A DNA stretch of 64,000 bases from NCBI GenBank assembly GCA_030141605.1, contig JAQGDQ010000042.1, positions 62,001 to 126,000 on the forward strand, in the 5' to 3' direction. The translations under genes and the position numbers were made by a program. Source of the DNA: Tubiluchus corallicola (lineage: Eukaryota; Priapulida; Priapulimorpha; Priapulimorphida; Tubiluchidae). Below the pieces are notes generated by a model that was given only the letters and a program-made list of their open reading frames with translations, searched no databases and had not been told where the DNA came from. This document shows positions 16,187 through 63,106 of this stretch, in pieces. Position 1 is the first letter of the stretch. Each line of letters starts with the position of its first letter.

Positions 16187-17961
16187 TTGCATTACCCAAA
16201 GAAATGCTGTATTTTTTATCTCCCTTGCAGCATTACGATAGCTGTAAACCTAACATGTCTGAAAACATAAATTGGTAAGTTTTATGAGATAATTCCTGAC
16301 TAGGACAATCAAACGGTATGACGGCGACGGTATGTTTTAGGTAAGTATATAAATTTTAGGTAAGTACGGGAAATCTTTCTAATTATCTCGTTCCCGGTGG
16401 CAGGGGTGCCTTAATGTGATATTCCTCATTGCCGCAGCATTCCTGGCAACAAACTGTTACAAACAATCAAAGTCTATCTGAAAGAGTTTATTATAGAATT
16501 TATAGTAAATATTGTATTTTGTAGTCGGTCACCCATTTTAATCTTTTTACAGCACTTCACTATTTATTGTACCATAATTGCTAAAGAACAAAATAAATAA
16601 ACTCTACTTAAACTTGTGTGATTTCACTGATTTATAGTACTAGTAGTACTGAGTATAATCTATTGAAATTCATATTTTCGCATAGACCGCCAGTTACGGA
16701 ACCCCCGGTTGGATGATAAAATCCTCGTCCTGTTATACTGCTGTATAGTCATTATATCTTGGCAAGTGACTATGGCAAAAGGCTTCTGGGTGTTCCTGTA
16801 AGAACTATGTTTTGCGTTGTGCGAAATCATTTTAATAATAAATTATTAGTAGTTTTGTAAACTGTAATTTTAAACGGCCTTGTAGAACCCAAGGACGTTT
16901 TTAATGTCGATGCAGATGGTACATTGCACCATTGGCCCTTTAAAATGAAGTCAGTAGTGCTATACCATAGGCAAATTACAGAATCAATTGTTTTAGGCCT
17001 ATATAATAATACATAAGTTTTATAACACAGAATTTATAAGTCACTCGGCAATATGGCAAAATTTATGCACGTGAAAGAAAATCCTAGACGTTTGGACATT
17101 TTACTAATAATGAACATTTTGCGTCATAACTTAGGTGAGATTTGTTTTTGACGACATATAGTAAGACCTCGCTTAACGATGCTAGTGCGTTCTAGCAAAA
17201 TGCGACATTAAGCAAAGCATTGTTAAAAAATGCTAAGCAAGTAACGTAAAAGCACTGAGACACGTTCCATAGGCAAGAAATCAATGCTACTTAATTAGTC
17301 TAGATACTGGTTGTTATCTATAGCAACAGGTTGCAGGCAAAATTCCTGGAGGCATTTAAATCTCAAATACATCTCACTTTATTCAACTTACTAGCATTTA
17401 GCAGTCAGTCAGAAGGCAAAATCTTAAATCATAATTGCACTGTTTTATATTATTATTGCATTTTTAGAACAGAAAAACACAATATGTATTTTGTTAGTGC
17501 TTCAAATTAGGTAAAAATGTTGTTGATAAAATAGAAAATGGCTTTGAACAAAAGAAAACAATGGTCATTAAAATGAAACATGCGTTGTTAATTGAGAAAA
17601 AGTTGCCAAATGTTTAGCATCGTTAAAACAAAATGTTGCTAAACGAGGAGTTGTTTAAAAGCGAGGATGCACAGCATTTATTTCTTGCACAACATTAAAC
17701 ACTGTGATTAATATTGAGACTAAAGCAATGAATGTGAGTTATGTTTGAGACTAGCTAATTAGCCTCTGTGCTTACCAAGGCATTGAAGTTAAGCAACGTT
17801 TAGCCTAATTAATAAATGGATGGATGATTGTCATAGGAGGTGGGCATCTAACATTAACTGCAGCAATTGTTAACAATGATGCTTTTCTCTTTTTTTTCAG
17901 GTTGAGGACACACTGCTTTGTTTAGTGATGGTAACAAGGAATAGGTAAAAAATCTGCTCAG
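16187..17961 (+). promoter_or_regulatory. Intergenic region between divergent TBC1D2-like and BBS9 genes
   Basis: Holds the MITE at 17160-17669 and otherwise no coding signal. A pyrimidine tract and CAG at about 17888-17900 look like a 3' splice site, so BBS9 may have a spliced non-coding 5' exon upstream. The promoter cannot be located. Confidence 0.35.
17160..17669. mobile_element. Pogo/Tigger-like MITE
   Basis: The left end reads AGTAAGACCTCGCTTAACG and the right end reads GCTAAACGAGGAG...AAAGCGAGGA, an inverted arrangement of CCTCGCTTAACGATGCT. The 11-bp TTAACGATGCT at 17173 has its exact reverse complement at 17616. Ends of this kind are typical of pogo/Tigger-type non-autonomous elements flanked by TA. 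No transposase is visible. Confidence 0.55.
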
Positions 17962-20706
17962 ATGTCACTATTTAAAGCAAGAGATTGGTGGTCAACTACA
18001 GCTGGCATTAATGAAGAATATGATGCAGGGTGTCTGTGTCTTGGAAATATTGATAATGGCCGTGACTTTCAAGATAAGATCACAGTTGGAAGCTTTTCCG
18101 GAATTTTGCGCATATATTCGCCTATGCCGGAGAAATCAGAGTCAGGACTATCGGCTGGTTTTAAACCGGAAGATTTGTTGATTGAACATCAATTAAATAA
18201 TCCTATCTTACAACTGGCTGCTGGAAGATTTGTAAGTGCAAATGATTACATTCATTTAGCTGTCTTACATCCACGAAAGGTTTCAGTTTATGCAGTTTTG
18301 CTAACTGAGGGCTTAGTAGGTCATGGACATCAGCATCAGATCAAACTCGTGTACGAGCATACTTTGCAACGTACAGCATTTTGCATGGAGAAAGGTCCAT
18401 TTGGAGGTGTTGCTGGTCGTGACTTCATTTGTTTGCAGTCCATGGATGGAGTTTTGTCTATATTTGAACAAGAAACATTTGCATTCAGTCGCTTTTTACC
18501 TGGATTTTTGATGGCTGGTGTAGTAAAATATGTACAAAGAACAGATTCATTCGTGACTGTCTCATCAAGTTGGCAAGTTGAATCGTACAGGTATCAAGCT
18601 TTGGCTGTTGCTAGTGATGGATCTCAAGAAGAGTCTCAAAAGATCTCAAGTGGAAAACGCCTAACTGCTGATTGGTCTTTCAACATTGGAGAAGCAGCTA
18701 TGGACATTGCAGTTGTAACAAATCCACCTTCAATTCTCATACTTGGAGAAAGGAACATACATTGTGTAACTGATACTGGAAAACTAAAGTTTATGTACAA
18801 ATTAGATTACAATCCTAGCTGCATTTATCCATATTCTTCATCATCGGATGGCAAGATTAGTTACTTGATTGGCACACATTCCAAAACTTTGATGGTGTAT
18901 GAAGATATTAGGTTGAAATGGACTTCACAGTTACCTCATGCACCTGTTGCAGTAAGAACAGCACACTTCCAAAACTTACAAGGACTTATAGTTAGTCTGG
19001 ATGATTCCGGTAGTTTGCAGTGCAGCTATCTTGGAACAGATCCATCTGTATTTGTTGCGCCAGCAGTAGAGTCTCGTGATATTGACTACAACCAGCAAGA
19101 CTCTGAAATGAAAGAATTAAGCAAGATCATCCGTTCATCAATGAAAGGTAAAGAGTTCTTGTCAACAGCTGCTGATGATAAGGGGCTAGAGATACTTGTT
19201 GATGTACCTAACGAGTTAGATGAATATTCTGTTGCTCAGGAAACTGAAATTGAAGTTCAGGACGACGAATTCATTCCGTCCATTTCTGTGAGAATTTGTC
19301 TCCGCTGCCACATCCCAGTGAAAAATGTTTTACTAAGTATTAAAGCCCCGCCACCTATTGTGGCCAGTAAGACTATTTTTAAATTTGACTCAGTTGATAA
19401 CATGAATACAATAGTAGGATTCTACCTTTATTATACAACTATACCTTACTCCCTTACAGCTTCTGCAGTTGTAAATTACACATTACCAAGTCTAGCACCA
19501 CGGGTAACAGTGAAAGAAATTGATTTACCTTTGAGTTTAGTGATGAAACCTGTGACCCCTATTAAAAACAATTTATTGAAAGTGACACTTGATACAAACA
19601 AATCTGTTGCCAATTTAAATGATGTATTTCCCGAGTTACTGGGACCAAATGCTGAAGGTGCAGGTCAAGCTCTTGGATTCCAGTTTTATGGTGTGAACCC
19701 TGAAAAAGCACCTGTAACATTACTGGCTTCAAAGCAGTCCCAAAAATACAGAGTGCAATCAGATACTTTGGAATGCTTGTGGCTTCCCATGAAAGAATTG
19801 ATGGACCGGCTTTCGCATAGATTTATTCGTGGATCTGGCAAATCGGACTTTAAGGCTAGTTATTCTGGAGGACCTCCACTAACAGAGTACTTCAAATTGA
19901 CTAAACAACATTTCCAGTATCGCCTTTTGTTGGAGAGACACAAAGTAGTACTCACACAAATGGCTTCGCAGTTTCGAGCAATACAGCGCCGTTTGTTAAC
20001 AAGGTTCAAAGACAAAACTCCATCACCGCTTCATAATCTAGATACATTATTAGAAGGAACCTATCACCAAATGGTAGCTTTGTCAGAGGTATACGAAAAA
20101 ACGGAATCAGAGATGAAACATTCTGCATCCAGCTTGAGCAGCGCAACCAACTTGTTGTGCTTCTTGTTTCAGCTGTCGCACAATTTATCACAAGACGAAG
20201 CAGAGATCTTGGAAGCTTGTTTCTCTCCAGAGATTCACTTTTCAGATACCCAGGGTTGGGAGGAGATGGTTGATGCTTCTCTAACGCACTTACTGCGCAC
20301 TTGTTTGTCAAAATCTGTTAAAGATGCTAGTCTAGGTGGTCTTAGTGAGCTTTCTCCAATGACAGATTTGTCGAAACTCCATAAACACATTGCATTACTA
20401 AGTGACCGCCTAAGTAAAGATGGCCACCTCAGTTTAGCTTCTAAAACAGCTCATGAATCCATGGATGATGATGATGAAAATTTGGAAATTGGATCTGGTG
20501 AAAAAGTGCTTGAAGATCTTAATGACACTGTCCCCCCAGGGAGCAAAATTGGTGAAAACAATTTGAAATTATTCAAGAAAGAAAGATCACCAAACCAATA
20601 TGATGACTTTGGAAGTTCAGCACTGAACTCATCATCTGAATTATATCGTCAGAGCAGCACCAGTCATGTAAATGAGAGTGACATACTAAACCTCCCTGAA
20701 TTCTAA
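17962..20706 (+). CDS. BBS9: BBS9 / PTHB1, BBSome subunit, single exon
   Basis: A 914-codon open frame, close to the size of other animal PTHB1 proteins (about 890). The N-terminus MSLFKARDWWST is the family signature, and long blocks match the family: ICLQSMDGVL, FEQETFAFSRFLPGFL, DSFVTVSS, ILGERNIHC. Inferred architecture: N-terminal beta-propeller (about residues 1-400), a gamma-adaptin-ear-like domain (about 430-560), then an alpha/beta platform and helical region, with an acidic, Ser-rich tail after about residue 830. BBS9 is a scaffold subunit of the BBSome, which carries membrane proteins in and out of cilia. The gene has no introns in its coding region, unlike most neighbours, yet shows no stop or frameshift. 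The ATG follows an in-frame upstream region without a better start. Confidence 0.97.
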   Translation: MSLFKARDWWSTTAGINEEYDAGCLCLGNIDNGRDFQDKITVGSFSGILRIYSPMPEKSESGLSAGFKPEDLLIEHQLNNPILQLAAGRFVSANDYIHLAVLHPRKVSVYAVLLTEGLVGHGHQHQIKLVYEHTLQRTAFCMEKGPFGGVAGRDFICLQSMDGVLSIFEQETFAFSRFLPGFLMAGVVKYVQRTDSFVTVSSSWQVESYRYQALAVASDGSQEESQKISSGKRLTADWSFNIGEAAMDIAVVTNPPSILILGERNIHCVTDTGKLKFMYKLDYNPSCIYPYSSSSDGKISYLIGTHSKTLMVYEDIRLKWTSQLPHAPVAVRTAHFQNLQGLIVSLDDSGSLQCSYLGTDPSVFVAPAVESRDIDYNQQDSEMKELSKIIRSSMKGKEFLSTAADDKGLEILVDVPNELDEYSVAQETEIEVQDDEFIPSISVRICLRCHIPVKNVLLSIKAPPPIVASKTIFKFDSVDNMNTIVGFYLYYTTIPYSLTASAVVNYTLPSLAPRVTVKEIDLPLSLVMKPVTPIKNNLLKVTLDTNKSVANLNDVFPELLGPNAEGAGQALGFQFYGVNPEKAPVTLLASKQSQKYRVQSDTLECLWLPMKELMDRLSHRFIRGSGKSDFKASYSGGPPLTEYFKLTKQHFQYRLLLERHKVVLTQMASQFRAIQRRLLTRFKDKTPSPLHNLDTLLEGTYHQMVALSEVYEKTESEMKHSASSLSSATNLLCFLFQLSHNLSQDEAEILEACFSPEIHFSDTQGWEEMVDASLTHLLRTCLSKSVKDASLGGLSELSPMTDLSKLHKHIALLSDRLSKDGHLSLASKTAHESMDDDDENLEIGSGEKVLEDLNDTVPPGSKIGENNLKLFKKERSPNQYDDFGSSALNSSSELYRQSSTSHVNESDILNLPEF

Positions 20707-22360: not shown

Positions 22361-25300
22361 ATGTTTTTTTATGGAAAACTTAATTTGTTTTTTGCACTTC
22401 TTGCTTTTAGAGGGCTTTCAGCCTTTTTCGTTTCCACTTTCTATGTGGCAGATGAATTTTGGCAATGTGGAGAAGTGGCACATGTCATGGCTTTTGGGTA
22501 TCCTTCTAATCTATCTCATCCTCATATCTGAAATATTAAAAAAAGAGCTCAACTCTGTCATTTTGACAAAAAGTATACCAGTATCATGGAAAACAGGAAC
22601 AATTTCTCTCATTCATAAAAGGAAGAAAAAGAAAAGATTGAAAATTATAGGCCTATAGCTATTAGAGGTAAAGCGGGGTTTTTCATCCTTTGAAGGACGG
22701 GAAGCAAAGGCACGACTAAAATTTTTTAAAAGAATTATATTTATGAGTGATAATCGGTTATTGAAAAAAGTGGTAATATGGGTAGTGACACACAGAATTC
22801 GATCAAAATAGCTGCAAAGAATCAGAAATTTGGGCTTCCGGTATTTGGCAATATTATTGCATTAGGGGAATTAAATGAGGTAGGTCTGAATAAAATTTAT
22901 GATAAACATTTGGGTGAAAAAGCATGGGATGTGCATATAGAGAAAACTATAGCTGAAACAAAATAGGATTAAAAATGTGGAATGAAAAATTCAGTAAATG
23001 TTTGACAGTAGAAAGACATAGAGATTACAAAAGTTGTATATCATTTGAACCCTCGATGAACGATACATGGGGTGCAGAATTGCTTGTCAAAGCTAGGGTT
23101 GGTGCATTAGAAGTATTGGGAAATCCCTTGTATGCTTGGAAAGTAGGTTACTTTGTAAATGTAGTAAAGATATTGAAACTGCAGATCACGTAATATTAAG
23201 TTGTGAATTTTACACACAGATGAGAAACAAGGTCCCTTGGCAAGGAGTAACTGATGAAGAATGCTCGAGATGGCTGTTATTTGGAGAGGGAAAATTTATG
23301 CAGTCTGCCTACTGAAGGACATAATGGTCAAAAGAAGAAGCATAGTGAATGTATAACTTTACAGCTGAAAAGATAAAGAGTAATATATATTTAGCTGTGC
23401 GTAACGGTGGTATAACATTTGTAAACCCAAGTTTGTTTTGTGTTGTTGTAGCATTAGAGCAAGCATATGTGTGCGCCTTAGCGTTTTTGAGTAGAAATCA
23501 GCCTAGTAGTACAATATACATTGCTACTCGCCCTGATATAAAAGGGATTTAGGCACCGGACGGATTGATGGATTGTTGTAGGCAAAACTTATACCTCTTA
23601 TTTCTGGAGAACGGGAACGGGCTGTGGGTGATGCTGGCTGTGGTTAAATAGTCCGTTCAACGGTGGGTGTAGTAGGCATACTTAGAATTCGCGAGAGGGT
23701 CACGGCGTCCCGTGACGGGCGTTTTCTCGGACCCAACTCTCGATTTTTTCGAAATTTTGGTCAAACAACCTGTAGAAAAACCGTTCTAGCGGCGCCTGGT
23801 AGGACTCTTGAAAGGAGATATATAGCTCTCTAGAAAGAGGAAGAACAGGGCTACACGATGATGTGGGCTATATTTTAGTACACGTCCACCAAGAGGAGTG
23901 CTGACGTGTTAATTAAATGTTCTATTTTGGGGAATTTTCGCTTGGAAAACTGCTGACGCAAAGCCATTGTTCTGACGTCATCCATTATACTCTGTTACCT
24001 TATAACTTTACAGTCGTGGCCAAAAGTTTAAGCCCACCTGTGATTACGACGTGAATTTTGAGCTTTTTTGGTATTCAATACCATATATTTTCCCTCATGG
24101 TGGACCGATTCGTACACGCGATGGCTCATTAGGAAGGTAATCGAAAATTGCAAATAAATGTTTGTGTTGCGCATGCACAGGACTTACGAGATGATGACAT
24201 CATCGCATTGGTGACGTCATCGGTATGGTTGCACGAATTGTCTTAGACACGCTCTCGGCAGTAGCTACCTCCCCAGTCGTCTGATTATGCTGGATGGTAA
24301 TTCTAATGATGAGGATGAGTGATCAACTGCGCATGCGCATTTGTCTCCGACTTGATGATGTCATCCTCGCTGTGACATCATCAATGCTTGTTATCCCGTC
24401 GAAACGGTGATTTCATAATTAACTTTGATTCAGAACAGAATTACAGAGATAATGGAATATTTTTATCATCAAACAAGGAACTCATTCGTGGAATCACCAT
24501 GAACATTGCCTTTAAAAAATTCTGCAGCTTCCTTTTCTAGAATGACTTGAAATGTCCTTTTACTGTGTATTAATCACTTCTAAATGCCCAGTTTCAGTAT
24601 TTCGTATGACCTCCACGCGCGTTAATCACAGTGGCTATCCGACTTGGCATGCTGTTAACTAGACTTGTGCAGTATTCTTTGGATAATTGCTGAGTCCAAA
24701 CGAGTTTTATTGCTTTTTCCAGTTCATTTGCACTACTTGGTTGTACGTCTGCCACCTTGTCTATTAAAGCTGTCCATAAATTTTCAATAGGATTCAGGTC
24801 CGGGCTGTTTCCTGGCCACTCTAACGTGCGTACACCCTTCCTCCGTAGGAAATCTGATACGATCCGTGACCGGTGACAGGGTGCACCATCCTGCATAAAG
24901 ATGGAACACTCATGAACCTCCATATGCAGTTGTAGCATATGACGTGGAGGTCATACGAAATACTGAAACCGGGCATTTAGAAGTGATTAATACACAGTAA
25001 TACACAAGCTCAAATTGGGATAATGAGATTGAAACTGAGGAATGAAAATGACTTGAGATATATATGTGTTCGCTATGCATATGTACTATTATGTCAGCAA
25101 AGCAAGAATGCAACAGCTTATATTGGATAAGAACCTTGGACAAGATCTACTTCATTTTTTCTTAATTTTCGATAAACAAAACTTCAAAATTTTTGATATT
25201 ACACTTAGTAAATAAAAGCTCTAAATGCTGCCAACAATGCACAGTGAAAACCACTGGCGAAAAAAGATTTTTTGCTCTAATATTTTGCTTAACTAGTTAA

Positions 25301-28300: not shown

Positions 28301-31300
28301 GATTTACTATTTTATGGTCAGTGGACATTTGTTCATTATAATTTCCTAGCGTTCAATTTTCTCACAAACGACAGCGCATTCTATGGTTCACATCCGTGGC
28401 ATTGGTATATGAGTCAAGGTTTACTGATGAATGTTCCAGCCCACATTGTGCCTGCTGTTCTTGGAGTGTACAAAACGAGGACTAAGGTCTTTGCCTACAT
28501 TGTTGCTTGGAATGTGCTTCTACTCAGGTAATGATACAGGTCCTATTAAAGGTTTAAAAGTTTTTTTGTTGCAGTTTTAATTTCAACATTTGCTTTATTT
28601 GAAATCAAGCCATAATTTAATTTAATGTTATTTGTTTTGTGCAAAGAGTTTACATCACATCCTCTAATGTCATTTTCAATTTTCTTGAAACCACCTGCTC
28701 TGTGTTTGCTTCGTAGTATTTTTTCTTTTTCTATTTGTGACTGTATTCAGAAACTGTCAGGTTAATTTAAGTGTACACATCATATATGTTGAAAATACAA
28801 GAATCTTTACATGTTTTCAGTCTTAAAGATCACAAGGAAGCTAGGTTTCTACTGCCAATGGTTCCCCTGATTATGATTTATACTGGTAAGGACATCCTAG
28901 GAATCATAAAGGACGTCCAGCAATGTTAACTGTTTACAATGTTTAAAAATTTTATTAAGGTTACGTTAGTATTGGTAATTTAAGCTTCTTCTGGTTAAAA
29001 AACAGAAGTGATGACTCAGATATGTCTGGAAAGTGTGGATCTAAGGTTTATTTGGTATACCAACTGTTTATAAGTTTAAAGGTTGTGAATGAAACAATGC
29101 TTGTTGGTGCTCATAAGCTTAATGTGATGTTGTTTTTATTTCTTAGGTTGTTTTATGCAGTCTCTATGCAAACCTGCAGGCAAAGACAAGCCAAGACATT
29201 GTATGGCTGCTTTTATACTCTTGGGCTATTTAATTGTCACTAATTTACCCGTAGCTTTGTATACATCTATGGTTCATCAGCGAGGAACCATAGATGTTAT
29301 GGACTATTTATATGATGAAGCAGTGACTCATACAGAAATGCAAGTGCTGTTTTTAATGCCATGTCACTCCACGCCTTATTATAGGTATGCTGTTTTATTG
29401 TATCTCACATTTTGGGGGTTGTTTAATTTAACATTTGTATTTTATCAACAAGTTGCTAATAGTTTGTTTAGTAGTTAATTTAGAAAAATGAGTCAATCAC
29501 AGACAAAGTTTCTAATAGTCCTGTTCCTTATCTATTTTCGTTAATTTAACTTTCCAGAAATATAGAGGATATCTTATTTCCAAAAATTTTGAACGAACCT
29601 TATGACCAGTACGTTAACTATAACTATACCTTCTACACAGTTCTAGTCTATGACTTTACCATTCTAAAACATAGGCCTGTGAAGCTAATTTTCTAAACTA
29701 ACTACCAGATAAATCAATTGATTTGGACTCCACTTGTAACAATGTTGAATGAATGTGACTAAATCAATTCGAGTTGAGGAGTGCATCATTCTTCTAATGA
29801 CTCTTTTGCTTGTTATGCCAGTTATGAAATGCCAATATTTTAGATGTTCAGCACGCATGGAATAATAAAAACTAATAACAGTTAGTTCACAATGTTTGCA
29901 AACATTGAAGATCTTGCAAACATTATAGTCAATAGTTACAGAATTGGACATTGAAAAGATGCTAGCCTTTTTTTTGAAAGTTCTAACTTTGTTTTGTTGA
30001 ATTTGGTTTGCCTGAGTGCATAGGAACTGCACTTCATAATGAAATGGGAACTTGTAACATTTCAACCTGTGACCCAGGGATCAGAGGTCAACCAATCTCG
30101 GCATAACAGATACCATTCAATTGGCCTCCTTTCATTTGACATACTACAAGCTAGTTTTGGTTGACACTGGAAAGCACTTGCCTCCTCGACCCTATTTTGT
30201 CCCCTAGAGGGGTTGCAGGTTAGCCACTCAGTTATTCATTGTAACCTATGCCATATGATTCACCTCATCGAGCCTTCATTTGATATAGTACAAGGTATTA
30301 TTCCTAGACACTTTATGTATTTTTGTTTCTGACCCCCATTTTATAGTTTTTGACCCCCTGCTGGTCAATACTTGGCACAACTTACACCATTCAATTTGTC
30401 TCATTGAGACCTTTCATTTGATGTACTACAAGCAACTTTTGGTCGACCTTGGAAGGTATTTGTCTCCTCGACCCCTATTTTGTCCCTAATGGGGTCGCAA
30501 GTTAACGATTTACGTTGTAACCTATACCATTCGATTCGCCTCGTGGAGACTTTTCATTTGGGACGCTACATGGTACTATTCCTAGACAATCGATGCATTT
30601 CTGTTCCCATCCCCTATATTTAAGTTTTTGCCCTCTACTGCGGTCAGAGATTAACCAATGGCTAAGCAATTATTACCGTTCAATTTGTCTCATTGAGACC
30701 TTTGATTTTACGTAGTACAAGCTAATTCCAGTTGACAATGGAAGGCATTTGTCTCCTCGACGCCTGTTTTGCCCCCTATGGGGATCACGGGCTACCTATT
30801 CTCATTGTAACCTACACCATTCGATCCGCCTCATTGAGACCATTCATTTGACATTTTTCGGTCTTTGCCCCCTAGCGGGAAATTTTCCTACACTTGCATG
30901 CCCCATATTTTGTGATGTGCAAGGCCACGCCACCATCTAGCAACATACAAATATTTTGGCCCAGTCTCCGTCCAGAGAGTATACCCTGTGAATTTTGTGT
31001 CCCTAGCCCTCAGCATGTAAATGTCACCTATTGTGGGACCCCAAATTTTGCATTTTGGCCCCTCCGTCGGACGTTTAAAACTTGTCAGCTTTTTAAAACC
31101 CCAGGTGCACGTCTACCCCACAGTACCCAAATACTTGTGAAAAAAATTTGCAAAAAACCAAGAGCCCCAAGAGGAGATGCGACCTAAAGGAAGAACTGAC
31201 AGACGTCCACTGCCCTTCCCCTTTGACCAGTGGTCAGCGGTCAACACACTGTTGTCTGTGACCCGCCAAGGGCTACCCACCCTGTAAGTTTGTGACCCTA

Positions 31301-36866: not shown

Positions 36867-39800
36867 ATGGTTCATTCTACACGAAAACATCACTCTTCTA
36901 GCCAGGAGCAATCATACTGGACAAAATCGTTAATTGGATTTGATTGGCCGGACGTATCATCATGGCTTGCATTTGTGAAAATGATGAATCGCCCTATGGA
37001 CCCGGCGAGTTTGGGACTTATGAGAATTTTTTATGGTATGTGGTGTTTTTTTTTTAAAAATTTGCATAGTTAAGTAAAATGACAATATGTACATGACAGC
37101 AACTCGCGTGCCATACAAATTAATCTCAGCATTAGACTTTACCTTTTCAGGTCGTTTAGAGAAATAATGTATCGGTCTAGTTCTCACAACAATAGTAGTC
37201 ATGCAGAAAAGCATGATCTTAGCATCAGACATGTTTTAAGCTTTCTGAGTAACAAGACTGGCAACGTTTACATTGATATTAATGCTTATTCTTCATTATT
37301 TATTGTATTAGTAAATCACTGACACTCATTTAACTGTGTCTTGGTACTTTGTGAATGTCACTGTTAAATGTGATTTGTAGGTTTACTGATATTTAATTTT
37401 GTTGCTCTTCTTTGTAAATTGTCTCAAAGCTATTGTCAAATTCCACTTATTTTGAAAATGAATGTACAAACAGAAAGAAGAAGAAAATCAAGTGCTGCTG
37501 TACTTAAATTTTAGAAGAAAATAAGAAAACACTGCTTGCAGGTGGCTTGATGTTTCTTGACATCATCCAGGAACGTGGATTATTTAACGCGGAAGTCCGC
37601 TGGGGCGATCCTGATGAGTGTCGATTTCCTCTCTTTTCTTTTTTGGAACCACTTTCATTGGAGAGGATGTACATGATTTATCTTACTCTGTGGTTTTGTA
37701 AGTGTGTCATAAAAAAAACGAATAGTTGTTTGTGCTTTTCTACAAAAATGCATTCCATCTGAGCACAATTATGCACAATTAATTTACATTGAGTAATGGT
37801 TAACATGTAAGAATTACTCATTATTCTAATAGCTTTGTTTTTATTATAATTCTGGCATATTTTAATCTTTTTATTAAATTAATCTGTTAATACTATTTCA
37901 ATGAATCTGTCACTTGTATTTACGTGACATACTTTTGAGTGCCTCTACAGGAATTATTGCAATAAATGACTTTAGTTAAAAACTGCAGGTCTAAATATTT
38001 TCTAGTTCCTCTCTTTTGAATGTGCCAACACAGTTTTCAAAAGATAAGATAAATCTTGCTCAGTGATAACAAATTCAAATAATTTTAAATCTGTTTTAGC
38101 ATCTCTACTTATCATGATTGGACTGTGGTACCGAATAGCATGCTCTGCTTATTGTATATGCTACTGGTACCTGTTTCTGCTGGACAAGACAACTTGGAAT
38201 AATCATTCATACCTATATGGTCTTCTAGCCCTGCAACTTTTATTTACCGATGGCAATAGATATTGGTAAGTAAACATAAATACCTCAAGTGAGGTACAGT
38301 AGATATAAAATATATGGTTTAAATCGGAAAAATGCCCCTGGTTCGAAAAGCGCAATTATCGTTGGCGCAGTTAGTTTGATTAGTTGCAGTTTAGTGGTTC
38401 ACGACTCAGTGAATAAGTGATAGACTTTCTGTGTCAAACACAGCCCTAAATAATAATAATAGGTTACTCATTATCTTTCTTTTGTGGCTTTTTCCAAGTA
38501 TCTGCATGGTCACAGAAAGATCCAGTGATTCCTTCACTCACTCTGTCCATCATGTTTCTCAGTTCCAAAAGTAGTTATCCAATTGAGTTGAAATGTGGTA
38601 GGATAATCAGTTAAGGTGTTTTTGGTTCCATTCAAAAAATTTGTAATAATCTCTTTGTTAATCAATTAATTAGAGCTGTTTAATTTATTAATTTTAAATT
38701 GATTAAATGAAAATTCATGAAGAGCAGAAGTGTAGCACTTAGTTCTCTCTGTGCCAGGATGTGCTTATGGCTGCAGCTTCTCTAAACTCTCCTGTCTTTG
38801 ACCTCTCTCCAGCTCCTCCATCCTGACCTCCTCCAACTCCTCTTGCTCTTCTTCCTGTTGATGTCCACTCTATTGCCATCAAACCATCATTCTGCCACTC
38901 TCTCCACCTCTGGGTTTGAATCCCACTCTAATGACTCGTGTTTTTTCAAGTCAAGTCAAACCATCATCCTGCCACTCTCTCCACCTCTGGGTTTGAATCC
39001 CACTCTAGTGACTCGTGTTTTTTCAAGTCATGCTCCGCTTGAAGGGGACTCTCTGGACACCTTCCTAGGCCTTCTCGTTTTTAACCGTGTACATGATCTA
39101 AAGCAGTGAGTGACGTTCTAGCCACCTGTCCTTGGGTGTTGAGGCTTGTTAAATTGGTGCGATAACCATCTTACTCAATGCACTGAAGGGGTATTAGACC
39201 ATTCTTCTTCTTTTTTTCCGGAGGATTTTGTTTGCTGGCTTTTTGTAATATATTTATTCATACACAAACAGAAGAAATATTTTAATATAGATCATTTTAT
39301 TTCATCTTTTGTGTGTTCTGCAGAAATTCCTTAATATTAAATAAGATAAAGTTAGAAACATTTTAAGTAAATATTGTTCTTGAAACTGTATTTTGCAAGT
39401 ACAACTTTCTAAACTAGTTTCTTAATGTGCATAAAATTCTTTTCTGTTACATTAATTTCTCCTGGTGTTTTTTAACGATATTATAAGTGGTTAGAGGGCT
39501 GAAAATTATAATCTTGATTAGATTGCAATTGAATAGGCATCTTTACCGCTTGAATTTTAAAGGTGTTTTCTTTCTTTGAATGGCAAGGTTACTTTCCGTG
39601 TTTGTCATAGTTCATGAAGGAACAGAAGCAACCCATAAAAATATACATTCTTTTGTTTGTTTCAGGTCCATTGATGGTCTACGTTATCCATCTATACGCA
39701 ATGCTCATGTGCCTCTGTGGAACTACACTCTACTCCGTACGCAGATATTTCTAGTTTATTTCATTGCTGGCCTAAAGAAGACTGATCTAGAATGGTTGGG

Positions 39801-42800
39801 TGGTCATTCGATGGTTAGTCTCTCAGATCATTGGGTGTTCATCCCTTTTAGGTGAGATTCAAGTTACAGCTGACGCTCATGTGAGTGTTTCTTGTTTTGC
39901 TGTTGTTTGTCAGATTCATGATGTTGGTATCCTAAAGGAGGTGTTATTTTTATGTAATTATAACCCATTGAAAAATTTCAAAATAGAATTTCAATAAATT
40001 TTTCCCAAAAAACTGTGCTTGGCAGATAAGATCACAATAAAATTTTCAAACCCACAGTATTGTACAAATTACTGCCAGCATAATAGCTTTTTTGTTTTTG
40101 GCTTATTGGCTGCATCATATTTGGCAGGTCCTTTATAAGTTGTAGCGTTGTATTATATAAGAAATAATAATGATACCATAGTAACACACAGATGGCACAA
40201 AGCCATGCTTCTCTGGCAAAGCCTTGAAAACTCTTGCTGGCTTCCTTCTGCTACCGTACAGAAGAACTATTGGCACGAAAAATGAGTGGACATTTTGTAA
40301 CGATTTGTCAGTTATTCCAGAAAATGTCTTGCGGTTATACTTACCTGACTACAAGAAATAATAGTAGTTAATAACTTCTTTCATCGATATGTGCGTAATA
40401 TCAAGGTCTTACGTGAAAGCTTAAAAATTGTTACCTGACGACTAAAATGCTCTGACGACCTTCAATAAAAAAGTTTGCTGTGGCGCTGCTGCACAAACTT
40501 GTTGCAAAAGTCAAATTATAAATATTTTTACTCATATTGCAATAAAATTGTTTTCCCATTTCCCGTTTTCCCGTGGGACCAGTTTTCAAGCATATTATAT
40601 TTGGTATGAAAATTATGACTTTCTTTTGCAACCTGAACCGTTCAATAAAAATCTTGCTTCAGTTATATATATATATATATATTTATTTATAGGTACAAAA
40701 ATAGATGTGAAACGACTTATGCATTCCAATTGTTTTTGAAATTTGTCTAAATCTGCTCAATTTAAAAGACTTATGTAAGCACTAACTTTCGATTTTAAAC
40801 AATATAAGTTGCCATTCTAAAACCTTGCAAATATAACTAAAAGGGCCTACCATCTATAAACTTTAATAAATACTATTTTAGTCAGCAAAAAGTAACATTT
40901 ATCTATTCTTTATGTCTAAGTGAAAATAATCTCAACATATATACACACTTTCGCAATATATTTGGTATCGTTTAATTAAGTATGTGAGTATATTCTGCAT
41001 GAGCATTTGCTGTACTGTTTGTGAGTAAATATCTGATGCTGTAGAGCAGCTAACCAGCTAAAGTGCCTGATTATGCCCTGGTTAATTAACATTTCGCGAA
41101 TCCGTCTATTTGGTCAAGACTATTTTGTTTGCTGTCATACAGTAGTATTGTTAATATTATTGCAGAAGTGTCAGACACAACGTTCATTATTTTTTCTGCA
41201 TTTTCCTTTCTGGATTTTTTTTCTTAGTTGGTCGTTTTTTTCATAAGATATTATGATGGTAGTAATAATTTGAACTCAGGCAAGTCTATAGCTAGAAACT
41301 ATCTGATTATGTAAGCGGCTAATCGAGTTGTTCTTAACGTTTTTCCCAACAGATGGCAGCACAATAGTGTGGTTTTGCGAGATTCTGCATCCTTTGGTTG
41401 TCCGCAGCGTTAAAAATCATTTGAGAAAGAAATTTAGGATCGTTTTGATGATTTAAATTGTTTTTCAGAATGCACCTTGTTATAATTTAGTCTTTATTGG
41501 AAAATGTGCGGCGTGTAATTGACTGAAATGAAATGATATGATATCGCCGTGAATTTGTAATCTAGAGGTTCATGTTTGGACTTTGTACTTTGTCTACCCT
41601 GGCGTGATTATTGCATTTAGAGCTGTATTTGTATGTGGAATTTCAAAGGGGACTGTGCTGTTTTATAATAAACTATAAAATGGAATACTGTTATGTGCAT
41701 AATTGAGTGATTTTGTGTAAGATATATTCAATTTCAAGCGTAGTGCTTTGATGTAGACCGGTCATCTATACTGCTTTTCTGACATTTGGACGGTTCAGTA
41801 CAATGGGGGATCGCATTTTCACGAATAGGCGTGGTGAACCGTGCACGATGCGTGAAATGTTGGATGGTCTTCCTGATTGGAGCGAACGGTTTAGATGTAT
41901 GTACGAAAAGAAGTTATTGATGGATTTGACTTTTTTAGTTGGTCCAGATGAAATACAAGTGAAGGCTTGTAAGTTTATGTTAGCACATAGAAGTCGAGTG
42001 TTCCGGAACATGCTTCGCGAATATGAACCTGATGAATCTGTACGTGTATCATTGCCTGGTGAAGACCCGGAAGCGTTCCGGCGATTTATTAAATACCTCT
42101 ATCTAGATGAACTTGAGAACGCTGATGATATTGATGCTCTTATCTCATATGCGAGACTAGCTGTGAAGTATGGAATTAAAGACATGCAAGATCATTTATA
42201 CATCTTGCACATGAAGAATGTGGTTAATGAGACAAACGTTTGCTCACTGTTAGAAGCCACAAGTGGGTTTTACAGAGCTGACTGCATGGAACATTGGTTA
42301 GCATATATTGATGCACATTGCCAGGAAGTCATACATGCAGAAGGATTCTCGTCTCTTAGCTATAACAATGTTTTACAGATTGTGCAACGAGAAGCATTGT
42401 GTGTGAATGAGCTGGACTTGTTCAATGCTGTAATGTGTTGGGCGGCTGCTGAGTGCCAGCGACAAACCTTGGATTCAACCCCTGAAAATCACAGGGCAGT
42501 TCTAACTGAAATTTTATCACATATTCGTTTTCCTGTTATGGACCTACAGGAGTTCGCAAGTGGACCAGCAAGAATTGGAGTACTTACTGATGAGGAGGTG
42601 ACCAACGTTTTCATAAGTGTAAGAGCTCCAAGCAGTACTGTACCCCTATTTCCACACAGAAAAAGAGGATATTCTGATGACAGTTAGGCTTATTGAATGC
42701 AACACAGAGTTATAATGGTGACTAGGTGTAATTGCTGTATTGGTGTATTGTAATATTTACCTTCAAACAGTTTAGATGGGTTGGCACTGTGACAGCGGGT

Positions 42801-45800
42801 GTGCACATTTCAGTGCCTGATGTAAACTTGCTTACGCAATCTGAGCTTAGAACATTATCATCCAGTTTGTTCCAATCTGGAGCAATTCTATTGTAAATAC
42901 AACAAAGAGTGTGTGCTCTTGACCTCTGTGTTATCTATATGGATGATAAAAAAATAAATTTTAATCAATGCACCATCAGTCCTCATTTATTACTTTATGT
43001 ATGTTAACTAAGTCAGTTGTTGCCCTCCATTGTTCTAAAGTAGAAACACCGTCCCTGTTGAGATCCTCAGCCAACTGTAAGCACGTTTTTGAACCGCTCC
43101 AATTGTTCGATGATTGTTGAATACTAAGCAGACCAAACAGAAACAGCATTTTTACAAGATGAACCTATTGACTTATACAAGGGAATGATGAGTTAAAAAG
43201 TTAGCATCATCAAATAGTAACAAAATTTAGTAGTGACTAATGAATTACAACAAACAGGCTTACAGCAGGGAAACTTGTCTTCTCCAAAATCTTTGATTAG
43301 GTTATGTCTAGCAATTGATGAACAACTGATACTGGCACTGAAATTGACTGAATTTCTCTGCTTTATGGGCTAAATAAACTTAGTAGTGTAGATCTGTTGT
43401 ATTTGCAAGCAATGTAGCCTATTGTGAAACTAGATTTTGAACTATTCTTGTCAAAGAAAATTTTTGCTGAGATGTATTGTCAAACAGCTAAACTGCATTA
43501 ATATGTGGTAGGCCAGACATGATTTCTTTACAAATCTCTGCACTCTTTTGTCAGCTTTTAATATAAATATTTACACTCTTGCAACAAATGAACTTGTATG
43601 TCTGTTCCTACATGGGAACCATACCCTAAATAATTCTGTTAACAATCAAATTTCTGTATTAGTGCAGTCTTTTATTTCAAACACTAGGTGCTTTAGATAA
43701 TATTAACTGTGTTACTCTTGTTAATTACCAATTACCATAATTATTGCAACATTTCTTGTACAATGTCGTCACTATTGTTCTTTATCTGTCTCTAGCATTT
43801 TGCTCCCACTAGGGTAGAACATATCGTTGTACAACTGTCTGTTTCAAACTTATGTTACATCGATGTTACATCTTCAATAAAATTATGTTTAAACCTATGT
43901 GTGATACGTTACTAGGTGTTAACTGCCAAGGGCAACTAATGTTATAAATATACAATAGTAATAATGATAATGAGAGTGATATGGGTCATACGTTGTCTCT
44001 AGTTTGTAAACATGTTTGTAAAGTCTTGTCACGTAGCTTTCAGCTTATTTAATATTGAATTAATATTAATATTGAAGATTCTATAGTTTGATGATTTGAA
44101 CTTTAAATTCTATTGAAATGTCATACGATAAATATAAATATACTCAACTGAGACAACAATAAATAATTATTAAAAAATATATACCATGCTGAGTAAATTA
44201 TATTTAATGATTATATGAAATCCTGAGTAAATTTTATTTAATAATTATATGAAATCCTGAGTAAATTATATTTAATAATTGTATGAAATTGATTAACTTA
44301 TATAATTTTACTTATTCGAAATTAAGAAAAAAAATCTTACTAGTGACCTGTTAGCAAACACAGTTTTTCTTAATACGATAATTGCACTTTCTAGTTAAGG
44401 CATATAATGCTAACTTTTCAACTAACATTAACTGAATGTGTTGACTTTTTTGTAGCTTTTGGAATTTCTGTGTACAATGAGCTATGTTTAGCATAAGAGA
44501 AAGTAACGTTAATTATTTCGGGTGAAACACTTGATAATGAAGCTTTCTCAGGATTGGAAAATGTGTATACTGAATTAATTAATTACACTAGTATTGTACT
44601 TGTAATAATTATACTGCGCAGCAGTACTAATTTTATACCATTGACAATGTGTTTTATTGTTGCACTAAAATGTAAAAAAATGAATGCCTTAGGCTTGTTG
44701 TTGGTTCAGCATTTTTACAAAGTCATTACAGTGTAAATTTGCACATGTCTATAAATAAACTCTAGATTGGCTATGAACCTTGTAATAAAATAACCTACGT
44801 GCTCTAAATTTGACTTGCAGTATTGTTTTTGATAAGAAATATGAAAGAAAACCTCAAGATGCATCTTAGATATTAAACTTATTAATACAAAAAGGAGATA
44901 AAGCAGCTTCGTAATATTCTGTACATAAGAAATCTAACAGCAAGTTTTAATTAAGCAACCTTATGAAATATTTAGCACTAGGAAAGCTGCTGTAGCCGAT
45001 TTGAGGTAAATTTCACCAGTAAAATCGGTCATTTTTAAACTGGAATTATTCTGTGTTTGACAAAACAGTTGCAGCATGTAAAAAAGTTTATATGTATATT
45101 TTGAATGAAAAAAATATTGCAAAATTTTGTGATTTGTAAAGAAAGTACTAGGGAGGGCCGTGTAGTTTCAAAATGTCACTACATAATTGTGCCATATTAT
45201 TTAAGTACAGCACAGGGTGTTTGTTTTACCATGAGCATACAATGTGTTACAATGAGATTTTTCACAGAAAACAACACAATTTTTGCGAAGGCTACCTAGT
45301 ATGTCTCCAGAAAGTACCATGAAGAAAATCTTGTATTACTGCTGCCCAGATTAATTTTAGATTTGAGAAAAAAGCAATCAGGAGTGCATGAAATGATCTC
45401 TTTCAAAGATAACTATACACTTTATACATTTTTTTGAAAGATTAATAGTAGGCACATGTAAGCTAGTAAGACTATTATGAGTTCAGTAAAATTAGATAGA
45501 AATCTGAAGTGAACTATTGCACAGGTAGACTTCAACATGTGTGCCACTTTTTTCTCCTGGTGATTCAATCTTTCCAGCAGCATCATAATTTTAAGTTAAA
45601 GGTTTGCACATCCATCATACCAAGTTCACGAAAGAGTCTTGATCTAGTTCCTGAAAATTTTCTTACTGTGTAACCCCATAAAAATTGCATAATTCTGTCA
45701 AACTCCAGTGTTCCTCAATTGAGGACCTATAACCTCACTGGAGTTCTATGTGGGTTGTTTAATTACGTTTTTATGAAGAACGCTATGATTTGTTTACTTC

Positions 45801-48800
45801 TAATGCTGTAGCTGTTAATTTCAATAATCTTAATTCATAGGATAAAATATCAACTCTCCTATCTGGTAATCTGCATCTAAGACATGATGAAAATGTTCTC
45901 AGATTATGTAGTAGAAATTATCCAATATTTAGTATTTTAGCAGTCTAAATTAGTTAGAAATTAGGTATCTCACAGAGTGTAGCACATTTTCCAGCACTGA
46001 AACTCTAAACCCCTCCTCCAGATGGCGAGCTAAACAGAAGGCAGAAAGTCAACCTTTTTATACATAAACGACAAGATTTGATGATAATTACTTAAAGAAT
46101 GTAGTGTAAATTACAACAAATAATGTAGTGCAACACGATTTTGTCTTTAAGTTGTATGAAACTTTTCATTTTTCTAGAGTATAAATTGCATTTTTGAGTT
46201 AAGTGAATGTGAGTTAGGTGAATTAAATTACATGTATTTTGTTTAAATGGACCATCATTTATTATTTGAGTATAAGGAATGTTTTTTGTGAGAAAAACGA
46301 AGGATGTCAACTGTTCTGCTGAAATTCTTTGAGTTAGGCGAAAATTTGAGTTATGTGATTTTGACTTACGCGGAGTTTACTGTTATCTCCAATGCTTTAT
46401 TCTCAATTAATTATGTACATACTTCGTAATTTTCGATGTACGTACAAGCTTGTGGTAAAAATCAATTTTTTGTAGTCTGTTCACCTTAGGCTTTATAATA
46501 TAACAAATAAAAATATGTTTATAAAAAACATACAAATGTGCATGTATGAAAAACTGAACTAAAGGTTTACTTAGTTATACGTCAAAATTTAATATGACTA
46601 AGTATAAAGTTATGGTAAATGCTAAATGTGCAACAATATAGCAGCAATTTTTGAAACTTTGGACTATTTTTGTGTCTTTATTATTCCTGGGCTTTTTTAA
46701 CATATAATACTAATTTCTTTAAAATTTATTCTTTAGGATATTTTTATCGGGAGAAAATGTGGACTATTTTATTGTGCATCTTGGAGGTTTTACACTGGAT
46801 TTGACTATAGGATTCTTCCTGTTTTTCGATGCTTCTCGCCCTTTTGCATTATTTTTCTGCACCATGTTTCACCTAATGAATTCACAATTGTTTAGCATTG
46901 GTAGGTAAGACACTTTAACAATTACACTTCTTTTCACAATTTGTAGCTATAACATAGTCATAGTTGTCATAGCTGTTATGACATGTATAGGTATGGCTTT
47001 TAATAATAACATGGTAACAGTTAATTTTTTGTTTTTTGTTATTGTTTAAACACATTTTTTGATAAAAGTTATCCAAAAGGTAGAATGTTACATTGACTAA
47101 AGTTTTTTTGGATAAGAAAAATGCAGCATAATTAATAATAATGGCAGTGAGGTCGCTCAAGTTCACGGGTATCATGGAAAATATGATGTTCATAAAGTTT
47201 CGAGAAGAATTCTTGCACGTAAAACTCCTTATACTCCCAAAGTTTCAGACTATAGTATGGAATATACAGAGTGGTACATAACCCTTTGCTAAGGTGTATA
47301 GAAGCAACAGGTAATAGTACAAATACAATTTATTACATCAGTGTGGCACTGAATTGCACAATGTGAATCTATCATGCAGTATAGTGGAAGCAGCAACTTC
47401 TAGAACTCAAGATTCTCCAGCACATCTTGCAGATGTGTCACAAGCTCATCTCATGAATATTGATCAATGGTATGTTCTTGAGTTATCTAAGATTGTATTA
47501 TGAGAAGACAGCAAGAGAAACCTATGTGTTACCATTACAACACCAGGATAAAAGTAATGTAGGGTTATTGTACTATTTTCCTTGCAATGAAGCGGTTGGA
47601 AATTTTATTCGTCTGATGATCTATGTATTACCAACAAATTCGGGGCAACGTGGGACCTAACAGATGCAATTCTGTATTTATCACCTTATAAGTGATCAGA
47701 TAACAAAGAATAGCAAACAGGGTTCATTTGACAAGAGCAGCCTGCTAGAAATTGAGGACTGTTTGTGAAAAAACACACCAGTCCATAGTTCATCCATCAA
47801 AACCAATGGCAGTGATTGTTCAGCTGAACCAATGGAACTATGAGGGTAACAAAGGCCACCTTAGAAACCTAAAAATAGATTTTTCTAACTGTATGTAGGC
47901 TGATTTGTGTTGCACCCAACTTTTTTGGGACACCTACTTGTTTTGTTTTTTTCTGGTCTTGTCACTAATATATTACCCATGTACTGAGTACTTTTAAATT
48001 TTACTTTTTCAGGTATGTTTCCTTGGGTAATGATCTTTACACAGACGTTGTTTTTCCATGCTGATTGGCCGCGCCAGTTGTTTGCTCATTTACCTGATGG
48101 TTTTTTTGCTGAAGATGGAATACCTCAGCTCAGCGCGCATTGTGTGTATACTAAAGAAGAGATCAAACCAGATGAGCCAGCGGCTCCGACTAGTGTGAGA
48201 TTTTAAAAGCATTTTAATTTCAATAGTTTGGGAAGTTAAACTTTTCTTTTAATTGCATTAATTTGTAATATGCAATTTGACATGTTGCTTGACTATGTTG
48301 AAAGGGTAACCTTATTAACTGCTAATTTCAACTTCACATTTTGTTATATTTTTATTTTTCTTGTTGCAAATGTTATAAAGTTAGTGATTTTTCTTACAAT
48401 TTTGTATATCTTAGTTTTATGATTTCTCCTACAATCTTGTATATCTTAATTTTATAATCAAGTCTCATATATGTGAGCATATTTCCTTGTTCCTGTTGAA
48501 CTTGGGACAGGGCTGGTACTGAGCTACACAAGCATGACATTAACCCAGTTAATTGTTTGTTCAATCTACGACTAGAAAAAAGGGTCACCTAGCTTTTTTA
48601 TTTCCTCATTTAGTAAGGTGCAGTGGCTGTTTTATAAGAAAAGAGACTGAGGCAGAGAGCTGAACACTCACACACTCCCTCAGACTACTACTGACTCACA
48701 GTTAAAAAGGAGGCAGATCTTCAAACTGCCTCTGAGTTTGGCATATTGGTAACATAATTCATCTTTATAGCATTGAACATCTTGAACTGGAATGTCAAGT

Positions 48801-57942: not shown

Positions 57943-60900
57943 TTAATCTTGGTGTGTAAAATGCCCTTCAATGGGACCCATTTCTACATAAATAGTTTTT
58001 AGCTGAGTATATTGATCAATGGCTGCGCAGCCATTTTCTCTGCCAATCCCTGACATCTTGTAACCTCCAAAGGGTACCTCTGGGGGATAGATATTGTAGT
58101 TGTTGATGCAAATGCCTCCTGCCTGTAGATGATGTGCAACTCTGTGTGCTCTCTTTATGTCTCGTGTAAACACTCCTCCTGCAAGACCGTATGGCGTAAA
58201 ATTGGCTCTAGTCAGTACCTCCTCTTCTGTGTCAAACGGAAGGATTGTCATGACAGCGCCGAAGACCTCCTTATTGACAATCTCCATATTATCCCGGCAA
58301 TTTGTTAGGATCGTTGGCTGAAAGTAGAACCCATTTTCTAAATGTGGATCGGTTGGGATGAAAGGTTTGCCACCAGTGACGCATTCAGCCCCTTCGTCTA
58401 GTGCCCTATCAACAAATCCCGTAATTTTATCAAGCTGCTTCTTACTTATTGTAGCTCCTACTTTTGTAGCTTCATCCAGCGGATCACCAATTCTCAGTCG
58501 CTCCGTCTCATCTTTTATGCGCGCCAAAAAAGAGTCCAACATTCGGCGCTGAACGTAAACTCTTGTAGCAGCAGTGCATACCTGGCCCTGAGACAAAAAG
58601 TTTGCATTCATAGTCCCAGTTATGGCTGTATCTAAATCTGTATCGTCAAAAATAATTAGAGGGGATTTTCCTCCCAATTCAAGGGTAACATTCTTTATTC
58701 CTTCGGCACAATTTTTCATCACTCGTTTACCAACTTTAACACTGCCAGTGAAAGAGACTTTTGCAACATCTGGATGTTCACACAAACGCTCGCCAGTAGG
58801 TCCTAGTCCTTGCAATATGTTAAAAACCCCTTTTGGCAATCCGGCTTCCTCAAATATTTCAGCAAGAATGATGGCCGTAAGAGGGGTTAATGGCGATGGT
58901 TTAAATATCATGGTATTGCCACAAGCAAGAGCAGGGGCAGCCTTCCAGCTAACAGTTAGAAATGGAAAATTCCAAACTCCAATTCCTACACAAACTCCTA
59001 GCGGTTCTCTCCTGACTATACCAAATGACCCATTTGGAAGGGTTACAGATTGTCCTATTTGAGCAGTTATAGCAGCATGACCTGCCATATAAGACAGGCA
59101 ATCTGCACTAGCTTGAATGTCGACCCTAGCTTCCCAAATGGGTTTACCACAATTTCGTGTTTCAATGTCAGCAATCTGTTCCACCCGCTTTCTAATAATA
59201 CTAGCTGCTTTTTGTAATACAACTCCTCTTTCAACGCCGGGTGTTTCAGACCATTGTTTGAAAGCTGTTTTTGCTGTCTGAAAATAAAACAAAATATATA
59301 GTAATACATAATTGCAAATATAATTAAGACAGCACATGTATTTAGAAAGAGACCACCTTTATCCGTATTTTTGTAATATGTAATTTTGCGGTAACGTAAA
59401 GGAAGCTCTCACTTAAAGATGCATACCATTAACTGACATTTCTTTCTACTAATCAAGCATTGCTGTTATCAATTTGTTCACTTTGTAATGAGTGTCTCAC
59501 ACTAACACCAAATTCCTTGCTTACTAAAACACTCAAACCATTTCTGTTGTGCTGACAACTTCTAAAAAATTGTTAGCAACATAAATTTGCTATTTATGAT
59601 TGGTTTAATGCTCTTCCTAGCAAGCCAGATGTTTACACATTATCTAATATGACGTGCCATACTGCTTGATACTAGTGCATGAAGATGTGCAATGAAACCA
59701 CCTGATCTGATGAAATTTCACCTACATTTTTATTACAGAAACACATTTCCAAAAAATACAAATTATATTATTTTCTAGGGAAGGCATTGCATCATTTATT
59801 AGTGCTTCCTGAAGAACCTTAACACAATCTGGACTACTAAGTGCCTCTAGTGTCCAGTACTACTCGCAATCAGGACTGTGCTAATAGCTGCTCCATTCTT
59901 TATGTAATTCACATTAAAACTGGTAGACGGACAACACAGTATAAGCATAAAGCAAGGAAAAAACTAAAATGTGGTACGAGGCAGATGGAATTTCATGTAT
60001 TAAATGAATGAAAAGCTATAAAATTACTAGTAATTTTACACGAATTATGTAGTCATGCCGTTAACATTGCAAAAAGACTCTTAAAACACGATAAATGTAA
60101 AAACTATTTTTTGCTTTCTACGAAAGTCTGCTTTAATTACAGGACAAGAAAAGGGGTACCTGAAGTAGGTTTCAGAAAAATTGCCTTAAAAAATTATACT
60201 ACTTTACAGCAATTTCATGCACATATTGTATTCGCGCTGAAAGGAATTTTCATTTTAAATCTCCTGAAATACTGTTCCGACGGCGCCATTACATAACGTC
60301 ACTATGCCATGTAAATCAGGGGAAGAAAAGGCAATTTTAAACTATGACCCAAAAAAGCTTTCTGTGCAAATCTATATTACTTAGCATTTCACTTACCTGC
60401 TGCAAAGACTTAAGTAACCAGACTAACAATTTAAAATGTTTGTGCCAATTGGTAAAATGTCGCTGACTTACCCTCCAGGGTTGCGCCACTCACTAGCCAA
60501 AAACGTATTTTCAATCTTATTGACAAGATACAGTAATTTAAAATTTTGCTGAATTAGCAACATGTATGCTAAGAATGCTCTGATTATTTTTTCAACTTTA
60601 CTTAATGTTATCAAAACTTGTTTCAAACGACCTACCATTAAAATGGCTGCGCCTAACGGTCATCGCGTGAGTGTAAATTTACACGTTTTATACAGCGTTA
60701 TGGCCGATGCAAGCCATGCATACGAAAAAGTAGTATGTAAGTGGAATAAAATTTCGAGACGAATTTTTTAAGCTTTATGTAAGTGGAGGGTTTTCTTGTG
60801 CTTTAACTATTTTTGTTGGAAAGATTGCTGTTTTTGCTTCATACCTTCCTGTAATACACAATACAAGAGCTACTTTCTGCTTACATTGTTTTTTGACTTT

Positions 60901-61886: not shown

Positions 61887-62205
61887 TTTGCTATTGATAT
61901 TTACACCTAAATTAAAAAAATGATTCTATGAAAATTCGCACTAAATTTTTATCTAAAGAAAAACTAAGAAATTACGCCAAGAACATGACATTGTAAAAAC
62001 TTACATACAGTCATATACAAACAGGTTACTTAGCCTGGTAAACATTCATTTTCTTATGATGTCCTTTCTCGGTCGTGAAAGGAGTGTACCAATCTATACC
62101 GGCGTTGTTCTCTTGTTTTTATTTGTGGCTGGATGGCTGACAGAAAGCTGTAGTTTGCTGTACAGTACTTTCTAGCAGGCGGCTTATAACAATAATTTAT
62201 TTACT
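61887..62205. promoter_or_regulatory. Bidirectional promoter region, ALDH9A1 / METTL16
   Basis: Only about 320 bp separate the two start codons, which point away from each other, so the two genes probably share this regulatory region. Some CpG occurs near 62080-62105. No TATA box in a convincing place. Confidence 0.5.
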
Positions 62206-63106
62206 ATGAGGTTTAATGAATTTATGCATCCGCGGAATATCTATAAAGATAATCCCCCGGATTTTAAACAGCTGTCAATCCAAGATCCACAGTTTCGGCA
62301 ATTTTGTTTGTTAGACACAGCGGGAAACGTGACCATCAATTTCAAAGATCCTGAGTCACTCAAAGCATTGTCATGCACGTTGCTAAAACAAGATTTTCAA
62401 CTTGAGATTGAAATTCCAAGTGATAGGTTAATTCCAACGGTACCTGGCAGATTAAACTACATTTTATGGTTAGAGGATATATTAGAAAAAGATGTTGGGG
62501 AAAGCACAAACGGCGTCGATGTAGGTAATTGGTGTTAACACAGCACAAGCTGTTAATAAAATCGTTTGGTTAAATAGTCTAAGCGGTTATTGAAAAGTTG
62601 GCCTTAAACTAATGAGTAAGGAAAATAACGGCTTTGGCGAAATAACCAAGGCTCACAGTTAATCTGTGACAAATTTTTTTGGGGTCCAGGTTGCCCTCGG
62701 GTGACCCGCCTACTTTTGCGGGATGCCCTTGTTGTAGCGATCTGCCCTATTTTATTATCTAAAAGTATTTTGTATTGAGGTATTTGTTAAAGTATAATGC
62801 CTAAAAGAAAGTGCTGTGGAAATTTATTGTACAACAGTGACAATTCTAGTTTGCAGATTTATACTGTCACAAATGATATCAACTGGACAGAAATTTTGAA
62901 CTATCTAGTCTTAATTAGTCTCATACCACTATGAATATACTGTACATTTTTTTAAAATGTTGTAGGTTGTGGTGCATCATGTATCTACCCACTGCTGGGT
63001 GCAAAACAGAATGGCTGGCACTTCACAGCCACTGAACTGGATTCTGTTTCATATGACTGTGCTGTCAGTAATGTCACAAAGAACAAGTTAGACAATTATA
63101 TAATAG
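62206..63106 (+). CDS. METTL16: METTL16, U6 snRNA / MAT2A mRNA m6A methyltransferase, first two exons
   Basis: Exons 62206-62524 and 62966-63106, joined as VDVG|CGASCIYP; the donor after exon 2 is GTAGGT. The N-terminus MHPRNIYKDNPPDF and FKDPESLKALSCTLL, then RLIPTVPGRLNYILWLEDIL, are the METTL16 N-terminal module. VDVGCGASCIYPLLG is the SAM-binding motif I of the methyltransferase fold. The enzyme methylates U6 snRNA and hairpins in the SAM synthetase mRNA. The catalytic NPPF motif and the RNA-binding C-terminal regions lie beyond the right edge. About 153 residues are present. Confidence 0.93.

Follow-up and report, generated by a model that had tools for sequence, protein, structure and literature searches.

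A MATH-less relative of an intronless BTB-BACK-MATH family nested in an intron of GGCX in Tubiluchus corallicola

Background

The gene for vitamin K-dependent gamma-carboxylase (GGCX) in the priapulid Tubiluchus corallicola harbours, in an intron and on its own strand, a complete open reading frame for a protein with a BTB and a BACK domain. Where did this gene come from, has it been maintained, and what could its product do with no further domain attached? An initial annotation of the window, by which I mean the whole stretch of 64,000 nucleotides that was analysed, read it as a retroposed relative of BTBD1/2/3/6 that lacks their PHR domain and may be a trimmed Cul3 adaptor. The observation is sound, and this first interpretation is partly mistaken.

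Results

The exons of GGCX splice at GT/AG into one frame, which matches the human enzyme over 263 residues (E 3.8e-96). By this spliced model the nesting in a 6.9-kb intron on the same strand is borne out, the host intron being the fourth when numbered in a model of five exons. The features of the locus are given below, with the evidence for each in brackets.

36867-37035, 37542-37697, 38100-38265 and 39666-39851, plus strand: GGCX exons 1-4 (spliced frame, human GGCX match)
39852-46736, plus strand: GGCX intron 4, the host intron, 6,885 bp (spliced frame, human GGCX match)
about 41671-41677, plus strand: TATA-like TATAAAA 5' of the open reading frame, possibly due to chance in AT-rich DNA (read in the sequence)
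41803-42687, plus strand: intact single-exon BTB-BACK open reading frame, 294 aa (translation, Pfam, AlphaFold2 pLDDT 87, Foldseek)
41902-42195, plus strand: BTB/POZ domain, aa 34-131 (PF00651, E 4.5e-13)
42268-42555, plus strand: BACK domain, aa 156-251 (PF07707, E 7.2e-12)
42637-42684, plus strand: linker common to the MATH-bearing paralogues, aa 279-294, including F283 and R288 (family alignment)
about 42749-43142, minus strand: decayed 3' fragment of a LINE (non-LTR retrotransposon), antisense, in the place of MATH (genome-wide relatives)
about 42950-42955, plus strand: candidate AATAAA poly(A) signal within the LINE fragment (read in the sequence)
46737-46899, plus strand: GGCX exon 5, end approximate (spliced frame, human GGCX match)

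The nested position of the gene is ordinary, as about 6% of the genes of Drosophila melanogaster are intronic (PMC3786989); BTB-BACK, for its part, is a listed subfamily in insects (PMC4033408). Elsewhere in the window, BBS9 (PTHB1) occupies a single intronless open frame of 923 aa (17935-20703, plus strand); since the genome gave no second match, BBS9 seems to exist here in this intronless form alone. The window also holds an aldehyde dehydrogenase (57946-59358, minus strand), a METTL16-like Methyltransf_10 match (62176-62535, plus strand), an exon of an Alg9-like mannosyltransferase (29128-29475, plus strand) and a fragment of a DDE_3 transposase (24597-24950, minus strand).

The nested frame runs from ATG to TAG over 294 codons with no internal stop, and it is the only ATG-initiated frame of at least 120 aa between positions 30000 and 55000. 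When the 64-kb window was Markov-shuffled 100 times, the longest such frame averaged 118 aa and reached at most 188, which excludes a chance origin of frames of this length here. By codon position its GC content is 52/37/37%, while the intron around it has 31%. Both domains pass the Pfam cut-off, and in a Foldseek search the AlphaFold2 model of the protein matches the BTB-BACK-type folds of KBTBD2, KLHL11 and SPOP; by its two domains (BTB/POZ, then BACK) and by fold the product is a BTB-BACK protein. That the locus carries an intact, intronless BTB-BACK gene on the strand of GGCX, as first described, is thereby upheld.

A search of the genome (343.5 Mb, 2,344 contigs) with the nested protein returned 65 matching places. 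At least 31 distinct ones, with five identical copies entered once, show no internal stop in an open frame of more than 400 aa, which makes this an intronless family throughout; its members (among them L002-L030, L034, L041 and L042) lie in several cases in clusters, and the nested gene is a lone, divergent copy outside these. All 29 translated full-length paralogues run beyond BACK into a domain of some 150 residues. This domain is MATH/TRAF and not PHR: a sequence profile matches it to the MATH/TRAF of USP7 (E 1.8e-7), Pfam MATH_2 recognises it in 4 of 14 paralogues, and its AlphaFold2 model (pLDDT 86) matches the MATH domains of SPOP and USP7 with a Foldseek probability of 1.00. The PHR model, by comparison, finds only three places in the whole genome, namely a spliced BTBD-like gene (C2286), another BTBD-like gene (C1042) and a probable MYCBP2-like gene (C266).

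The initial annotation named BTBD1/2/3/6 as the closest relatives. In this genome, however, the best MATH-bearing members score 57-75 bits in BTB and 87-119 in BACK against the nested protein, whereas the BTBD-PHR proteins score 44 and 82-87, and a BTBD9-like protein 30 and 52. The nested protein is at most about 38% identical to any paralogue genome-wide, and the tree puts it, weakly supported, on a long branch (2.3 changes per column); a relationship to the wider group is therefore as much as I assert, and no exact placement. Its best matches across the genome are nevertheless the single-exon BTB-BACK-MATH genes.

An intronless expansion of at least 31 distinct genes in which the domain order of SPOP is reversed is arguably a better lead than the nested gene. 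A survey of five insects lists no BTB-BACK-MATH subfamily (PMC4033408), nor did a search of the open literature bring up any paper on 'BTB-BACK-MATH'. Three places (L017, L021 and L044) show frameshifts or early stops near the passage from linker to MATH; L017 and L044 still have MATH sequence further on. In five others (L034-L038, on contigs C1796, C2016, C2136, C2140 and C2209), a BTB-BACK-MATH gene is accompanied by a gustatory-receptor-like open reading frame, and the contigs are 100% identical across the 5.4 kb compared. I rejected a mobile element as the source of these copies, as the identity spans the entire 5.4 kb and each lies about 24-25 kb from a contig end; assembly duplication is the most likely cause. 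The gustatory-receptor-like frames beside some copies would suit an insect, and TTAGG arrays, looked for as a sign of arthropods, did match, but so did the reversed control, which makes that sign weak.

The nested frame crosses the family linker with its F283 and R288 and stops six codons past R288, just before the point at which MATH starts in the paralogues. Neither MATH nor PHR was found in any frame of the DNA downstream, nor MATH in the six frames of the window; the gene is for this reason called a MATH-less relative, and not a full BTB-BACK-MATH member. A search of the contig for PHR was likewise empty. The gene thus lacks PHR, as had been noted, and no PHR exon turned up downstream on the contig. 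What finds no support is PHR as the missing domain, since the closest kin in this genome are intronless BTB-BACK genes that end in MATH/TRAF, with lower scores for the BTBD-PHR proteins.

The LINE fragment in the place of MATH consists of part of the reverse transcriptase and the 3' end, and is one of over 100 related places genome-wide. Its 3' terminus lies at about 42752, some 65 bp beyond the stop codon of the BTB-BACK frame, and because several other copies end at the same point, this is close to the true 3' end of the element. The copy's divergence from a rough consensus is 24%, which the mixing of subfamilies makes too high, and it is 69% and 75% identical to its two longest-matching relatives; the insertion is old. 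The insertion may itself have disrupted MATH, or it came after MATH had been lost, and a later deletion between the stop codon and the LINE is also conceivable. A minus-strand frame of 62 aa (42979-43164), considered as a small secreted peptide, turned out in a genome search to be the C-terminal part of the LINE reverse transcriptase.

When compared with 12 representative paralogues of the same genome, the nested protein agrees with the consensus at 14% of the columns that vary most, and agreement climbs steadily to 91% of the invariant ones. Under neutral change, the probability that no stop arises is 0.002 at 0.2 substitutions per site, indels uncounted. Judged from this graded conservation and the improbably stop-free frame, selection would have kept the protein for most of its history, with recent relaxation possible.

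KLHL3 touches Cul3 with its phi-x-E motif (M83-S84-E85); strong binding needs this motif, and E85A abolished measurable binding (PMC3616122). The nested protein reads Y-E-P at the corresponding place (alpha3/beta4 region), and the motif glutamate is also absent from several paralogues. With the motif lost, the trimmed Cul3 adaptor that had been proposed becomes doubtful in a canonical role, even though the predicted fold resembles Cul3-bound BTB-BACK proteins. Other contacts could compensate, and any binding of Cul3 should, to judge by the residues, be weaker than in canonical adaptors.

Discussion

The reading that I prefer, with a probability of about one half, is that of a real, long-maintained gene, a MATH-less derivative of the BTB-BACK-MATH family that acts by BTB pairing. 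The gene presents itself as a divergent, single-copy member of this large intronless family, and its C-terminal MATH, the would-be binder of substrates, was presumably lost, as suggested by the family and by a frame that ends between BACK and MATH, at a point now followed by an old antisense LINE. The product is predicted to retain the BTB fold with its N-terminal helices and the BACK helices. With the BTB fold kept and no domain for substrates, pairing is the most economical function, either with itself or with MATH-bearing paralogues, which a substrate-less partner might tune or block; heterodimerisation with the paralogues is something that I infer from the family. If the gene is expressed, it would be a natural case of an adaptor family giving rise to a member that binds no substrate, at a break marked by a transposon. 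The gene seems genuine and kept, yet intronic genes and BTB-BACK proteins are both common. A more elaborate version has a LINE insertion at the BACK-MATH boundary deprive a former adaptor of its substrate domain and leave a BTB-BACK partner, which was then selected as a regulator of the family and is expressed inside GGCX, and possibly spliced to it; this chain of events strikes me as quite improbable.

Alternatively, MATH may never have been present. The gene would then belong to an old lineage of BTB-BACK-only proteins that either gave rise to the MATH-bearing family or ran parallel to it. Its deep, long branch lies outside the recent expansions, no relic of MATH was found, and BTB-BACK-only proteins are a recognised subfamily in insects (PMC4033408). 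However, MATH is present in every full-length paralogue examined, and the linker through F283 and R288 is conserved with MATH- and PHR-bearing proteins, so that I regard this origin as unlikely, if still worth some weight.

How the gene came to lie in GGCX is a separate matter. The initial annotation argued for retroposition from the lack of introns, but as the whole family is intronless, this lack is inherited and gives no evidence of retroposition into GGCX. The flanks of the gene bear neither a target-site duplication nor a poly(A) that would convincingly mark a recent retrocopy, and no match in the genome exceeds 38% identity. The gene does not, then, look like a recent retrogene, though an old event would have lost such marks; its arrival may be owed to retroposition, to DNA duplication or to transposition. 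A retrocopy of specifically a BTBD1/2/3/6-type gene, which lost PHR and became a trimmed Cul3 adaptor binding its substrates through BTB or BACK, seems rather improbable. The genome does contain BTBD-PHR genes, the product of one of them shares the FP..R linker with the nested protein, and the predicted BTB-BACK fold is near Cul3-bound structures, but the higher scores of the best BTB-BACK-MATH members, the Y-E-P where KLHL3 E85A ends measurable binding (PMC3616122), and the missing target-site duplication and poly(A) all count against such a descent.

I also give little credence to a dying or untranscribed copy that is intact by recent luck and without function. The absence of a substrate domain and the decay by frameshift of its sisters L017, L021 and L044 would suit such a fate, whereas its graded conservation would not, nor would a frame that is intact right next to a LINE fragment so decayed that about 69-75% identity remains to the two relatives matching it over the greatest length. 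Hardly credible, finally, is an alternative terminal exon of GGCX, by which GGCX and BTB-BACK would be fused into one membrane-anchored protein whose transcript stops at the poly(A) signal in the intron: an acceptor-like CTGAC...TTCAG does lie 4 nt before the ATG, exon 4 (39851) joined to 41799 is in frame, the strand is the same and AATAAA follows at about 42950, but one joining in three would be in frame by chance, the pyrimidine tract is mediocre, and family members begin at their own ATG with no conserved acceptor there. An intron in the 5' UTR of the nested gene was considered as well and found unsupported, the family showing no conserved acceptor just before the ATG.

Comparison with known systems

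The nested gene and its paralogues (for example L002, G000:C1360:58166-58975) are both single-exon BTB-BACK genes with the same linker residues, at no more than 38% identity; the paralogues have a C-terminal MATH/TRAF domain, whereas the nested gene has none and stands alone and divergent outside the clusters. With BTBD1/2/3/6 (BTB-BACK-PHR) it shares the BTB-BACK core, its protein being about 32% identical to that of the spliced BTBD-like gene C2286. However, those genes bear PHR, have multiple exons and score lower than the MATH-bearing family, and the nested gene is without PHR. BTBD17 has the architecture BTB-BACK-TRAF (Pfam PF23651), and in BTBD17 and the paralogues alike a TRAF-like C-terminal domain follows BTB-BACK; the Pfam TRAF_BTBD17 model found nothing above the cut-off in this genome.

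A BTB-BACK subfamily without a further domain has been described in insects, with the silkworm proteins BBTB1-5 of 359-669 aa (PMC4033408). Compared by domain content only, these equal the nested gene in what is reported, although the silkworm proteins are longer. In SPOP and other MATH-BTB (BATH) adaptors, MATH and BTB are joined as in the paralogues and not as in the nested gene, whose predicted fold nevertheless matches SPOP; MATH comes first in SPOP and last in the paralogues, and is absent from the nested gene.
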